Shown here piece after piece: positions 42,204 through 47,685 of a stretch of DNA of 64,000 nucleotides. Origin of the DNA: Flavobacteriia bacterium (GTDB lineage Bacteria; Bacteroidota; Bacteroidia; Flavobacteriales; Weeksellaceae); NCBI GenBank assembly GCA_019455045.1, contig JACFND010000003.1:1-64000 (forward strand). Reading direction: 5' to 3'. How positions within the stretch are numbered: the first letter of the stretch is position 1; each line of letters begins with the position of its first letter. The translations under genes were made by a program, and so were the position numbers. Below the pieces are notes generated by a model, which had not been told where the DNA came from, made no database searches, and worked only from the letters and a program-made list of their open reading frames with translations.

Positions 42204-44606
42204 TTATCGGTCAGCCAGTCTGAGAATGTCACCAAAGACTCCTCTTGCGGTTACACCGGCACCCGCACCCGCACCCTGAATCACAATCGGATGTTCGCCG
42301 TAACTCTCGGTATAAATTTCAAAAATACTGTCAGAACCTTTCAGCTGACCAAGCGCACTGTCGGACGGAACTTCAACCAGACGGGTTTCAAGCAGTCCTT
42401 TCTCCTGCTGCAGATCACCCGAAAGTTCACCGACATATCTCAATACCATTCCCGCTTCAAGGTTTTTTTTGACAAGACCAAAATAATAATCGAGACCTTC
42501 CTTCTTTTCAAGAAATTCTTTGGTCGAAATCTGCTGCAATTCTTTTGGAATCAGATTCTGAATCCTGATTTCATCCCATTCATTTTTCAAATCCAGTTCT
42601 CTGGCAAGTACAAGAAGCTTCCGGCCGACATCGTTTCCGGACAGATCCTCTCTCGGATCGGGTTCTGTAAATCCGAGTTCGATCGCATCATCCAAAATCT
42701 CGCTGAGAGCAGCTTCATCCTTTGAAAAACGATTGAAAATATAACTCAGACTGCCCGAAAAAACACCTCTGATCCTGGTGATGTTTTCACCCGAAAGATG
42801 CAGCAGTTTGATGGTGTCAATCAGCGGAAGACCAGCGCCCACATTGGTTTCGTACAGATATTCCTTATGATTTAATTTCAAACTTTCTCTCAGCTTTTTG
42901 TAAAATTCATAATCAACCGTATTTGCGATTTTGTTTGATGAAATCAAATCAAAACCGTTTTCTATTAGACGGATATAATTTTTTGTAAATGCTTTTGAAG
43001 CAGTATTGTCAACCGCAATCAGATTTTCGAGATGATGTTCGTCCGAAAACCGGATGATGTCTTCAATTGTGTAATTTCCTCCTTCAATTTCAATTCTTGA
43101 TTTCCAGTCTTTTCCGATTCCGTTTTCGTCCAGCAATATCTTTTTTGAATTTGCAATTCCAAAAATATTCAGCCTGATGTTTTTCTTTTTTTCAATTTTT
43201 TCAACCGATTCCAGAATCTGACCGATCAGCGCATTGCCCACGTTTCCGTGTCCGAACAAAACCAGATTGACCGTTTTTGAAATTCCGAAAATCTGTCCGT
43301 GAATCACATTCAAAGCTTTTTTCGACTGTTCTTTTTCAACCACCAGACTGACGTTTTTTCCGGTCACCGCATTGCTGAAAAGTATCGGAATGATTTTATT
43401 TTTGACCAGAGCAGAATATGCTTTGTCAAAACTGCTCAAATCCTGACCGACGATTGAAATTACCGCAATGTCTTTTCGAATCGAAATCCGATCGACATCA
43501 CCGCTGTCAAAATCTTTTTTAAATTCATTTTGCAGTGCATTGGCGGCTTTCTCAGCATCTTTCTCGGAAACGATAAAGCCGATTCCTCTTTCTGAAGTCC
43601 CCTGTGCAATCAGACCGACACTCACATTTTCTTTTGCCAAAACACCAAAAATCCTTCCGTCGATTCCCGATTTCCCAAGCAGTCCCTGACCGTTCAGCCG
43701 GATCAGTGCAACTTCGGACTGAAGCGAAAGCGAACGGATTCCTTCCTGAGTCGGTTTTTCAGAAATCAGGGTTCCTTTTTCGTCCGGTTTCAGCGTGTTC
43801 AAAATCCGAATCGGAATTTTGTTTTCAACCAGCGGCTGAATCGTTTTTGAATGAAGAATCGAAGCACCGAAATTTGCAAGCTCATTCGCATCTTCATAAC
43901 TCAGCCGGTCGATTTTCCGGGAATTTCTCACCCAATCCGGGTTGGCTGTAAAAATGCCGTCCACATGGGTGTAATTCCGCAATTCTTTTGCTTTTACAAA
44001 TTTGGCAAGCAGCGCAGCCGAATAATTGCTGCCGCTTCTGCCGAGCGTCACCGTATCTCCTTTCTGGGTCGATGCTATAAATCCGCTGACAACCGGAATT
44101 GAATTTTTGTCAAATTTTGAAAACAGTTCTTTGGTTTTGAGTGCTGATTTCTGTTCATCCGCAACTGCATTTCCGTAATTTTCATCTGCCAGAAAGATCT
44201 TTCGGCTGTCAACCGGAATCGCGTTGATATTTCTTTTTGAAAACTGTTCCGAAAGGACTTTGATCGAAATCAGCTCGCCCTGCGCCAAAACCAGATCTCT
44301 GATTTTCGGACTGTAATCTGCAATCAGAGAAACTCCTTCAAACAGTTTTTGAAGCAGTCCGAATTCTTCTGTCAGATCGGTTTCCAAATGATACGGCCGG
44401 CTTTTGAATTCTTCAAATGCAGCAACATAACCGTTTTGTTTTTTTGCTTTTTCAAAGATTTTTTCAAGCGTATCGGTTGTATCTCCGATGGCAGAAACCA
44501 CCACCGCAATTTTTTCATTTTTTGATTGATTCCGGACGATCCGGATTGCATTATCAAAACCATGATCAGACGCAAGTGATCTTCCTCCAAATTTGATGAT
44601 TTTCAT
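42204..44606 (-). CDS. thrA: bifunctional aspartokinase / homoserine dehydrogenase
   Basis: Carries the first and third steps from aspartate to homoserine. 800 aa: aspartokinase domain (1-290, starting KFGGRSLAS; the usual KFGGTS Thr is Arg here), tandem ACT regulatory domains (about 300-455), then homoserine dehydrogenase with NAD-binding GHGNVGNALIGQILE (about 454) and catalytic GVFSGSLSYIFNRF...GFTEPDPREDLSGNDVGRKLLVLAREL. Third gene of metY-metX-thrA, 29 bases after metX. Threonine may inhibit it through the ACT domains (family knowledge); transcription should depend on the leader attenuators at 46983-47302. Confidence 0.97.
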   Translation of the reverse strand: MKIIKFGGRSLASDHGFDNAIRIVRNQSKNEKIAVVVSAIGDTTDTLEKIFEKAKKQNGYVAAFEEFKSRPYHLETDLTEEFGLLQKLFEGVSLIADYSPKIRDLVLAQGELISIKVLSEQFSKRNINAIPVDSRKIFLADENYGNAVADEQKSALKTKELFSKFDKNSIPVVSGFIASTQKGDTVTLGRSGSNYSAALLAKFVKAKELRNYTHVDGIFTANPDWVRNSRKIDRLSYEDANELANFGASILHSKTIQPLVENKIPIRILNTLKPDEKGTLISEKPTQEGIRSLSLQSEVALIRLNGQGLLGKSGIDGRIFGVLAKENVSVGLIAQGTSERGIGFIVSEKDAEKAANALQNEFKKDFDSGDVDRISIRKDIAVISIVGQDLSSFDKAYSALVKNKIIPILFSNAVTGKNVSLVVEKEQSKKALNVIHGQIFGISKTVNLVLFGHGNVGNALIGQILESVEKIEKKKNIRLNIFGIANSKKILLDENGIGKDWKSRIEIEGGNYTIEDIIRFSDEHHLENLIAVDNTASKAFTKNYIRLIENGFDLISSNKIANTVDYEFYKKLRESLKLNHKEYLYETNVGAGLPLIDTIKLLHLSGENITRIRGVFSGSLSYIFNRFSKDEAALSEILDDAIELGFTEPDPREDLSGNDVGRKLLVLARELDLKNEWDEIRIQNLIPKELQQISTKEFLEKKEGLDYYFGLVKKNLEAGMVLRYVGELSGDLQQEKGLLETRLVEVPSDSALGQLKGSDSIFEIYTESYGEHPIVIQGAGAGAGVTARGVFGDILRLADR

Positions 44607-44635: not shown

Positions 44636-45661
44636 TCATGCCGAATGCAGTGCTGCGATCCTGGTTTTCCTGATTTCAGAAATTTTAGTTCCGGCTGAAA
44701 AAATTTCTTTCAAAATCGATGACAGTTGTTCATATTCGATCAGAAATGCATCATGACCGTGAACCGATGAAATCTCGTGATAACCGATATTGTATTTATT
44801 TCTTCTGATCAGTCGGTAGATTTCCTTCTGTTCTTCTTTTGTAAACATATAATCGGTTTCGACCGCAACCAGATGGATTTTGGACTGACTGACTTTTGAA
44901 AAATTTAAAATTTCTTCTTCGGTCAGATCCTCACCGATGGTTTTCAGCAGATGATTCATCAGTTTGTAGGCATCCAATGAAAAGCGGTTTTTCAATGCTT
45001 TGCCGTGATAATTCAACCAGCTTTCAACCGCATATTGATTTTCTTCCGGTTGAAATTTTCGATTGAATTTCAGATCAAAAGAAACCGGTGTCCGATAAAG
45101 AAGCATTGCATGTTTTCTTGCGGTTTCAATCGGATTTTCAGAATGATTCAGAATTTCATCCTGAACCAGTACATTTCCGATCAGCCAATCCGAAGCCTTC
45201 AGACCGCAGGCAACCGGAATCAGATTTTCGATTGCATCCGGTTTTTGAAAAGCCATCTCCCAGGCAATGCTTCCGCCCAGACTTCCACCAATGGCAGCAA
45301 ACAAATGATCGATTCCCAATTCATCAAGCGCTTTCCAATACAGGTCCGCAATGACTTTCACGGTCAGCAGCCGATAATCTGCATTCAGTCTGACCGGATC
45401 GGATCCAAAACCGTTTCCGGGCACATCAAATGCAATTACCGTATAATTTTCCAAACCGATTGTTTTTCCTTCACCGATCAGTTCTTTCCACCAGCCGTTC
45501 GGGCCGGCTGCTCCGCTGTTTCCGGTCAGTGCATGATTGACAAGCACCACCGGCGCAGTATGGAGCGGCCGTCCAAAAAGCTGAAAACTCAAATCAAAAT
45601 CATAAAAATTATCGTCAGACAGCCTGTAATTCCTGACTGTCACCGTTCTCAAACGATCCAT
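44636..45661 (-). CDS. metX: homoserine O-acetyltransferase-like alpha/beta hydrolase
   Basis: Activates homoserine for sulfhydrylation by transfer of an acyl group from acyl-CoA. 341 aa with VVLVNHALTGNSGA (oxyanion), GNGFGSDPVR, nucleophile elbow GGSLGGSIAWEMAF, Asp in AVETDYMF and catalytic His in SVHGHDAFLIEYEQL. The conserved start is near YRLSDDNFYDFDLSFQLFG. I chose ATG 45661; ATG 45691 is possible but would enlarge the overlap with metY from 47 to 77 bases. Between metY and thrA, so the pathway assignment is firm even though the acyl donor is not proven. Confidence 0.9.
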   Translation of the reverse strand: MDRLRTVTVRNYRLSDDNFYDFDLSFQLFGRPLHTAPVVLVNHALTGNSGAAGPNGWWKELIGEGKTIGLENYTVIAFDVPGNGFGSDPVRLNADYRLLTVKVIADLYWKALDELGIDHLFAAIGGSLGGSIAWEMAFQKPDAIENLIPVACGLKASDWLIGNVLVQDEILNHSENPIETARKHAMLLYRTPVSFDLKFNRKFQPEENQYAVESWLNYHGKALKNRFSLDAYKLMNHLLKTIGEDLTEEEILNFSKVSQSKIHLVAVETDYMFTKEEQKEIYRLIRRNKYNIGYHEISSVHGHDAFLIEYEQLSSILKEIFSAGTKISEIRKTRIAALHSA

Positions 45662-46946
45662 CTGTCTGTGTTTCCAATTGTTCAAATACATTTCTCAAAT
45701 CATCAATCAAATCCTCCACATCTTCAAGCCCTACAGACAACCGGATCAGATCGGGTGTTACGCCAGTCGATCGCTGACTTTCCTCTGAAAGCTGCTGATG
45801 GGTGGTCGAAGCGGGATGGATAATCAGCGATTTTGAATCGCCGAAGTTGGCAAGCAGTGAAAACAGTCTGGCTTCATCCACCACTTTTTTGGCAGCGGCA
45901 TAACCGCCTTTCAAACCAAAAGTCACGATACCGCTTTGTCCGTTGGGAAGAAAATGCTGAGCCGCTTCATAATAGCTGCTCGATTTCAATCCGGGATAAT
46001 TCACCCAGGCAACCTCGTCCCGGCTTTCAAGCCATTCGGCAAGTTTGAGCGCATTTTCACTGTGTTTTTGAATTCTGATCGGCAATGTTTCCAATCCCTG
46101 AATAATCTGAAAGGAATTAAAAGGACTCAGTGCGCCGCCAAAATCTCTCAAACCTTCGATTCTGACTTTTGCGATAAATGCCGCATTTCCGAGTGCTTCA
46201 TGATAAACCAGACCGTGATATCCGGGTGAAGGTTCGGTAAATTCAGGAAATTTTCCGTTGCTCCAGTCAAATTTTCCGGCATCGATGATTACGCCTCCCA
46301 AAGCGGTTCCGTTGCCCGAAATGTATTTGGTCAGCGAATGGATGACAATATCGGCTCCGTGTTCGATCGGTCTGAACAGATAAGGCGAAAGCGCAGTATT
46401 GTCAACGATCAGCGGGATTCTGAACTCATGTGCAATTTCTGCAATCGCCCTTACATTCAGCAGATCGAGTTTCGGATTGCCCAAAGTTTCAGCAAAAATC
46501 GCTCTGGTGTTTTCACGAATCGAAGCCCTCAATGCTTTCAGATTATCCGGATCGACAAAACCGGTTTCGATACCGAATCTCGGCAAGGTCACGCTGAGCA
46601 GATTGTAGGTTCCGCCGTACAGACTGTTTGAAGAAACGATGTGGTCGCCGGCTCTCAAAAGCGTCAGCAGAGTTGTTGAAACCGCAGAGGCACCCGATGC
46701 CGTGGCAACTGCACCGATACCGCCTTCAAGTGCGGCAAGCCGCTGTTCAAGTACATCAGTCGTCGGATTGTTGAGCCGGGTGTAGATATAGCCCGGAATT
46801 GAAAGATTAAAAACATCTGCGGCATGATCCGCATTTTCAAACACATAAGAAACGGTCTGATAGATCGGCACAGCTCTGCTTCCTGCTGTTGCTTTGATGT
46901 CGTGGCCCGAATGAAGGGCGCTGGTTGAAAATTTTAAATTACTCAT
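45615..46946 (-). CDS. metY: O-acetylhomoserine sulfhydrylase (PLP)
   Basis: Makes homocysteine from O-acylhomoserine and sulfide. 443 aa Cys/Met-metabolism PLP enzyme: FSTSALHSGHD start, YTRLNNPTTDVLEQRLAALEGG, SNSLYGGTYNL, PLP-binding Lys207 in HSLTKYISGNGTALGG, and HPASTTHQQLS near the end. First gene of the operon, 36 bases after the second leader terminator; its 3' end overlaps metX. Confidence 0.97.
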   Translation of the reverse strand: MSNLKFSTSALHSGHDIKATAGSRAVPIYQTVSYVFENADHAADVFNLSIPGYIYTRLNNPTTDVLEQRLAALEGGIGAVATASGASAVSTTLLTLLRAGDHIVSSNSLYGGTYNLLSVTLPRFGIETGFVDPDNLKALRASIRENTRAIFAETLGNPKLDLLNVRAIAEIAHEFRIPLIVDNTALSPYLFRPIEHGADIVIHSLTKYISGNGTALGGVIIDAGKFDWSNGKFPEFTEPSPGYHGLVYHEALGNAAFIAKVRIEGLRDFGGALSPFNSFQIIQGLETLPIRIQKHSENALKLAEWLESRDEVAWVNYPGLKSSSYYEAAQHFLPNGQSGIVTFGLKGGYAAAKKVVDEARLFSLLANFGDSKSLIIHPASTTHQQLSEESQRSTGVTPDLIRLSVGLEDVEDLIDDLRNVFEQLETQTDGSFENGDSQELQAV

Positions 46947-46982: not shown

Positions 46983-47017
46983 AAAAAAAGTCCCTCCGGT
47001 TTTTGCCGAAAGGACTT
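46983..47017 (-). terminator. attenuator 2: terminator before metY
   Basis: On the minus strand 12 pairs (47006-47017 with 46988-46999, two G-U) close a CAAAAA loop and are followed by seven T (46983-46989). A competing antiterminator pairs 47057-47076 with 47002-47022: TTTGCC:GGCAAA, AAAG:CTTT, CAAGT:ACTTG, 15 pairs. It shares the terminator's 5' arm, so the two folds exclude each other. Confidence 0.9.
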
Positions 47018-47050
47018 CAAGTTTTGCTGTTTGTTTATTTTTTTACAGAC

Positions 47051-47140
47051 TCATTCACTTGCTGACTTTAGGCAAAGTTCGGGCGGGCGCATGCACATGC
47101 ACATCATCATTTTGCCGGTTTTACAAGTTTTGAAAGTCAT
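47051..47140 (-). CDS. leader peptide 2, Met/Cys-rich (MMMCMCM)
   Basis: 29-codon open frame: starts MTFKTCKTGK, then MMMCMCM at residues 11-17, then RPPELCLKSASE and TGA. Ten of 29 residues are Met or Cys. The antiterminator strand (47057-47076) lies in codons 22-28, just behind the Met/Cys run. A ribosome stalled there for lack of Met-tRNA or Cys-tRNA would leave it free to pair; a ribosome reaching the TGA would cover it. Too regular to be chance, but the peptide itself is inferred, not shown. Confidence 0.85.
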   Translation of the reverse strand: MTFKTCKTGKMMMCMCMRPPELCLKSASE

Positions 47141-47179: not shown

Positions 47180-47209
47180 AAAAAAAGCCCCTGCGTTGGC
47201 AGGGGCTTT
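47180..47209 (-). terminator. attenuator 1: upstream terminator
   Basis: Perfect 10-bp stem AAAGCCCCTG/CAGGGGCTTT (47184-47193 with 47200-47209), 6-base loop, seven T on the minus strand (47180-47186). Its 5' arm (47199-47207) can instead pair 9 of 9 with 47247-47255 in leader peptide 1. Confidence 0.9.
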
Positions 47210-47233: not shown

Positions 47234-47302
47234 TTAAACCAAAAGCAGCCCCTGCGCGTTTCCGCACATCATCATCTGCATTTTGTTAAATTTTGAATTC
47301 AT
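47234..47302 (-). CDS. leader peptide 1, Met-rich (MQMMMC)
   Basis: 22-codon frame: MNSKFNK, then MQMMMC at residues 8-13, then GNAQGLLLV and TAA. The segment coding for QGL (GCAGGGGCT on the minus strand, 47247-47255) is the exact complement of the terminator 5' arm, giving a 9-bp antiterminator. It lies about 48 bases after the -7 box at 47350-47357. The frame stays open further upstream, but that part overlaps the promoter. Confidence 0.8.
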   Translation of the reverse strand: MNSKFNKMQMMMCGNAQGLLLV

Positions 47303-47349: not shown

Positions 47350-47357
47350 CAAATTTA
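47350..47357 (-). promoter_or_regulatory. -7 box TAAATTTG of the metY-metX-thrA operon
   Basis: Perfect TAnnTTTG on the minus strand, 47 bases before leader peptide 1. No second box is seen between terminator 1 and leader peptide 2, so one transcript appears to pass both attenuators. Confidence 0.6.
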
Positions 47358-47571: not shown

Positions 47572-47613
47572 GGAAATTATTGATTGCAAACAGATTTTGA
47601 AGCTGGAAGTAGA

Positions 47614-47685
47614 GCGGGAAACGGGACTCGAACCCGCAACATTCAGCTTGGAAGGCTGACGCTCTACCAATTGAGCTATTCCCGC
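47614..47685 (-). tRNA. tRNA-Gly (anticodon TCC)
   Basis: 72 bases on the minus strand. The 7-bp acceptor stem GCGGGAA/TTCCCGC is perfect; the D-arm AGCTCAATTGGTAGAGC, anticodon loop CTTCCAA (TCC) and T-arm GGGTTCGAGTCCC all fit. The CCA end is not encoded. Confidence 0.97.

Follow-up and report, generated by a model that had tools for sequence, protein, structure and literature searches.

Organisation of the metY leader region

The window, a 64,000-nucleotide stretch of contig JACFND010000003.1 from a Flavobacteriia bacterium, encodes on its minus strand an O-acetylhomoserine/O-acetylserine sulfhydrylase (metY), together with a metX-like homoserine O-acetyltransferase and a thrA-like aspartokinase/homoserine dehydrogenase (Table 1). 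Two complete units precede metY, each with a short Met/Cys-rich leader ORF, a predicted antiterminator and an intrinsic terminator. Unit 2 is the second of these, directly before the gene, and unit 1 (47302-47184) lies upstream of it on what is presumed to be a common transcript.

Table 1 Features of the metY gene cluster and its leader region, in the direction of transcription.
Feature	Position	Strand	Description
Promoter-like -7 box	47350..47357	-	TAAATTTG; consensus in Bacteroidota TAnnTTTG; leader 1 starts about 48 bases away
Unit 1 leader ORF	47234..47302	-	MNSKFNKMQMMMCGNAQGLLLV, then stop; control codons M47281, M47275, M47272, M47269, C47266 (MQMMMC)
Unit 1 antiterminator segment 2 (predicted)	47239..47255	-	core GCAGGGGCT at 47255-47247, within the leader ORF
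Unit 1 intrinsic terminator (predicted)	47184..47209	-	AAAGCCCCTGC CAAC GCAGGGGCTTT plus T-run; -21.1 kcal/mol; 5′ arm is segment 3
Unit 2 leader ORF	47051..47140	-	MTFKTCKTGKMMMCMCMRPPELCLKSASE, then stop; 29 codons; control codons 47110-47090, MMMCMCM
Unit 2 segment 1 (predicted)	47111..47116	-	GGCAAA; in the MFE fold pairs with segment 2 at 47076-47071 in ribosome-free RNA (1:2 'protector')
Unit 2 antiterminator segment 2 (predicted)	47057..47076	-	RNAduplex, pair counts, permutation test
Unit 2 segment 3 (predicted)	47002..47022	-	3′ side of the antiterminator; overlaps the 5′ arm of the terminator
Unit 2 intrinsic terminator with T-run (predicted)	46983..47018	-	stem 47018-46987, -18.6 kcal/mol; T-run to 46983
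metY	45615..46946	-	O-acetylhomoserine/O-acetylserine sulfhydrylase; TIGR01326, 642 bits (cut-off 495)
metX-like	44636..45691	-	homoserine O-acetyltransferase; highest-scoring models TIGR01392 and NF001209 (175 bits), neither reaching its cut-off
thrA-like	42204..44606	-	aspartokinase/homoserine dehydrogenase; NF006959, 748 bits (cut-off 726)

The first-pass annotation of unit 2 had described a 29-codon leader with an MMMCMCM stretch and a strong terminator 36 bases before metY. Both were confirmed, with the T-run ending 36 bases from the metY ATG (46946). The 15-pair antiterminator of the same annotation was recovered at its position by RNAduplex (47076-47057 with 47022-47002, -15.3 kcal/mol), although the pair count is 16, one of them isolated. 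When the leader end was shuffled 100 times with dinucleotides preserved, no shuffle paired equally well (z -3.0). Since bases 47018-47002 are common to the antiterminator and the terminator hairpin, the two structures are mutually exclusive, as had been claimed. Segment 2 begins just past the Met/Cys control codons, and a ribosome at the stop codon covers it. For unit 1, the predicted pairing of segment 2 with segment 3 reaches -26.4 kcal/mol, which 0 of 100 shuffles equalled.

A generic sigma-70 promoter scan returned chance-level matches only, and the promoter search was switched to the Bacteroidota TAnnTTTG box. Among 69 loci, 25 have this box ahead of their first leader, with 26-38 nt from the box start to the leader ATG, and in the 46 loci with two units it never occurs between terminator 1 and leader 2. 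Given a box before leader 1 and none between the units, the units most likely lie in series on one transcript that runs into metY, the metX-like gene and the aspartokinase/homoserine dehydrogenase gene, with transcription probably starting before unit 1. The A-rich sequence before the leader starts fits initiation in Flavobacterium, which involves adenines at -3 and -6 (PMC6847099). A tRNA gene of Gly type by sequence (47613-47685, minus strand) lies some 250 bases before the presumed promoter, and the congener G004 carries a matching copy with internal gaps.

Rfam models gave no match at the metY leader locus, including SAM-I (RF00162) and SAM-II (RF01726), and on this ground a SAM riboswitch there was rejected; the T-box family had no match in the window. 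Elsewhere in the same genome, a pattern search matched at six other places, with no Met/Cys leader in the frames read, and a covariance model of unit 1 recovered only unit 1 itself (88 bits, next 33.9) and no second site. Two matches to this model of about 55 bits in the relatives G129 and G114 were rejected as background, corresponding to gene ends with a terminator; another hit, in L138, is located before a metX-like gene.

Conservation of leaders and RNA pairings

We read the upstream regions of MetY loci from 80 named genomes (Myroides, Flavobacterium, Gillisia, Christiangramia, Salinimicrobium, Salegentibacter and others), taking as a leader any short ORF with an ATG start and at least four Met/Cys in eight residues. 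At least one Met/Cys-rich leader was present upstream of metY in 61 of the 80 loci and two were present in 44. On the opposite strand of the same loci the corresponding counts were four and zero, and in dinucleotide shuffles 0-2 and 0; compared with the shuffles, Met/Cys leaders thus occur more often than by chance. Unit 1 leaders have counterparts in about 45 loci and the pair of units is kept in about 45 genomes; some relatives have a single detectable unit only.

The leader peptides diverge between species, yet the Met/Cys stretch is kept, with Met and Cys interchanging and both Cys codons in use (TGT 142, TGC 93). The control stretch is nearly Met alone in Myroides and L086 (the window's family), and Cys is mixed into it in Flavobacterium, Christiangramia and others. 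Because Myroides and L086 have essentially no Cys in this stretch, we regard Met as the core signal and Cys as an addition in other lineages. This refines the Met/Cys stalling that the first-pass annotation proposed for unit 2 and that the comparison otherwise supports. In L138 (G177), a single leader of the Met/Cys type, MKQIQLHTICTMITMMCGRYSAGVPIAIIE, lies directly before a metX-like gene and not before metY.

The congener G004 is identical to the window at 561 of 606 bases (93%). In its unit 2, both control Cys codons have changed silently from TGC to TGT and the segment 2 change falls on the one mismatch. Its unit 1 has lost one Met codon (ATG to CTG), with the pairing kept through wobble, and the terminator arms of both units are unchanged.

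Beyond this close pair, the relatives to which the first-pass annotation had pointed retain the Met/Cys codons, and compensatory changes preserve the alternative pairing. The terminator stems show strong covariation: in counts that ignore kinship, two-sided changes occur in 8 of 12 pairs of the unit 2 stem and in 6 of 11 pairs of that of unit 1, where 99.8% and 95.8% of cells, respectively, are paired. The antiterminators pair more strongly than shuffles across relatives (mean z -2.7 for unit 1 and -2.6 for unit 2), and in 20,000 permutations of the terminator arms among species, which ignore kinship, the pairing of each species with its own arm was never reached for either unit. A fixed-column count for the unit 2 antiterminator, likewise ignoring kinship, gave a weaker signal, since 79.8% of cells are paired and shuffles already reach 76.5%; two-sided changes were seen in 18 cells against 5.9 in shuffles, again with kinship ignored.

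The core of the unit 1 antiterminator covaries between lineages, with matched segment 2/segment 3 states that include GCAGCG/CGCUGC, GCAGAGG/CCUCUGC, AGGGCUU/AAGCCCU, GCAGGGGCU/AGCCCCUGC, GCGGGA/UCCCGC and UGUAGCG/CGCUACA. Within this unit CCGCAG is kept while its frame changes, encoding PQR or PQG in some species and SAA or SAG in others, so it is the pairing, not the peptide, that appears to be selected there. The 1:2 protector gave a mean z of -1.6 in relatives for unit 2, which supports it weakly, and of +0.5 for unit 1, where it finds no support, so that it does not appear to be a general feature.

Proposed mechanism and alternative explanations

We propose that metY-metX-thrA is controlled by two ribosome-mediated transcription attenuators in series, which would read the charging of Met-tRNA and often also of Cys-tRNA (probability about 0.9). 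This proposal builds on the predicted leaders, terminators and mutually exclusive antiterminators, their covariation and their position before metY, together with the lack of a promoter-like box between the units and the replacement by SAM riboswitches in relatives, all seen in the sequence and its comparison with relatives. Leader translation, ribosome stalling, kinetic antitermination, the response to Met/Cys and the logic of the series arrangement are what we infer from them. In each unit, a ribosome would translate the Met/Cys-rich leader and, with ample charged Met-tRNA (plus Cys-tRNA), reach the stop codon and cover segment 2, allowing the 3:4 terminator to form. When charging is low, the ribosome would stall on the control codons, immediately ahead of segment 2. 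This segment could then pair with segment 3 while segment 4 is still to be transcribed, and RNA polymerase would read on. As RNA polymerase would have to pass both terminators, the units should multiply each other's effect, which might make the off state tighter or the response steeper, or make both signals necessary.

A fold with the stalled ribosome masking the leader, as the first-pass annotation had suggested, does leave segment 2 free, but at equilibrium the terminator beats the antiterminator in every case, even with the ribosome in place. Antitermination would therefore have to be kinetic, which is also the common view of classical attenuators. A lack of methionine also lowers the supply of initiator tRNA, so that leaders would be translated less, and this could work against the response.

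Some relatives carry SAM-I or SAM-II in their metY leaders, and the leader RNA could likewise be an uncharacterised SAM or Met riboswitch with the terminator as its expression platform and the short ORFs incidental. We consider this very unlikely given the lack of an Rfam match at the locus and of any conserved structure seen beyond terminator and antiterminator; moreover, the leaders diverge freely except at the Met/Cys codons, where an interchange of Met and Cys takes several base changes. The peptides themselves might instead matter, by arresting the ribosome or as small Met/Cys products that bind metal or SAM, which would make each leader an arrest-peptide sensor rather than a codon-based sensor of tRNA. 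Met/Cys-rich peptides can bind metals, and a CNMCCMMW-like motif recurs in unit 1 of many Flavobacteriaceae. However, the sequence varies by lineage (MMMTMMMW, MQMMMCG, MMVMMMC, MMSMMMQ) with only the Met/Cys class kept, and the 3′ part switches frame and hence peptide, so that we judge this explanation very unlikely.

A terminator before a gene can also act as an insulator, and with a tRNA gene upstream the two hairpins might simply be constitutive terminators of incoming transcription, for example from that gene, with the short ORFs there by chance. This is scarcely credible, as dozens of loci share two conserved terminators, competing pairings that are likewise conserved, and Met/Cys leaders, when shuffles yield no locus with two leaders.

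Relationship to known regulatory systems

RNA-level control of methionine genes is usually ascribed to SAM riboswitches or T-boxes. The attenuators proposed here resemble the classical ones of Proteobacteria (trp, his, thr, leu, ilv, phe) in having a leader ORF with control codons for the product of the operon, a 2:3 antiterminator, a 3:4 terminator and a segment 2 near the stop codon. They differ from these in that the control amino acid is methionine, which is also the initiator, plus cysteine, that two units stand in series, that unit 1 lacks a solid 1:2 protector, and that the phylum does without Shine-Dalgarno initiation. The metY leaders would provide a clear and conserved, if predicted, case of leader-peptide attenuation in such a phylum.

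The leader of Salmonella mgtCBR likewise combines two short ORFs with attenuators; its mgtM and mgtP sense ATP and proline and act additively (PMC3641672). In contrast, both leaders described here would read the same amino acids and have an intrinsic terminator each, and many genera keep the pair in front of a biosynthetic operon. Polycysteine short ORFs precede sulfur-metabolism genes in mycobacteria as predicted regulators without conserved terminator hairpins, for which Rho was suggested (PMC1262725; see also Canestrari et al. 2020, as cited in PMC13236596). Unlike those ORFs, the present leaders come with an explicit predicted intrinsic terminator and antiterminator, and Met dominates. The SAM-I and SAM-II riboswitches of other Bacteroidota share position and gene with these leaders, but sense SAM directly and without a leader peptide.

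The first-pass annotation had held that few such systems are characterised in the phylum, which needs to be tempered: excerpts of a transcriptome study of Flavobacterium psychrophilum, a member of the same order, already report 'strong clues' that leader peptides attenuate amino-acid operons, which are not named individually (PMC9723704). Among the structured 5′ elements, the same excerpts name pheA, hisG and others as conserved, and they mention neither a metY or Met leader nor a tandem arrangement. A Met-reading ribosome attenuator is not described in the open literature searched, although supplementary Table S7 of PMC9723704 may list metY, and a search for papers on Met leaders in Bacteroidetes/Flavobacterium yielded none that describes the present system. 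The mechanism class is known; methionine control, the conserved duplication and the exchange with SAM riboswitches appear to be new.

Exchange with SAM riboswitches

An Rfam scan of 20 loci without strong leaders identified SAM-I in 10 and SAM-II in four, directly upstream of metY. Weak Met/Cys leaders are present in two of the remaining six, L045 and L054. Among 20 leader-bearing loci, no SAM riboswitch was found between leader and metY, the SAM matches lying past metY or on the opposite strand. SAM-I was present in all 20 leaderless loci tested in a phylum-wide sample. From another class of the phylum, L186 and L188 (one family) carry two Met/Cys units each and no SAM match, and their relative L187 (G224) has one Met/Cys unit, followed by SAM-I with its own terminator and then metY. 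By these covariance-model matches, predicted SAM riboswitches replace the Met/Cys leaders at the same metY position in relatives.

A quick MetY tree requires at least five changes of regulator type, and its strongly supported branches force at least four for the leader type. Sensing of SAM and sensing of tRNA charging would have swapped at the same gene at least four to five times on this tree, with one genome stacking both. This exchange makes it testable why one lineage measures SAM and another charged Met-tRNA, what is gained from two similar sensors in series, and how an attenuator works when methionine starvation itself lowers initiation. We give even odds to a phylum-wide, modular control of metY, in which one or two attenuators in series that sense Met(/Cys)-tRNA would be interchangeable with SAM riboswitches or stacked on them. 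The two units in series would form a multiplicative gate, sharpening or combining Met and Cys signals, and with them an attenuator that reads the initiator amino acid would be known for the first time.

In the genome of the window SAM-I is absent, and the single SAM-II match lies before metK (C2:13807-13866, L164), at a site that adjoins a gene for a PLP-dependent enzyme of the Met/Cys type. In L032 and L045, SAM-I is located between metY and the metX-like gene, placing both sensor types in one cluster.
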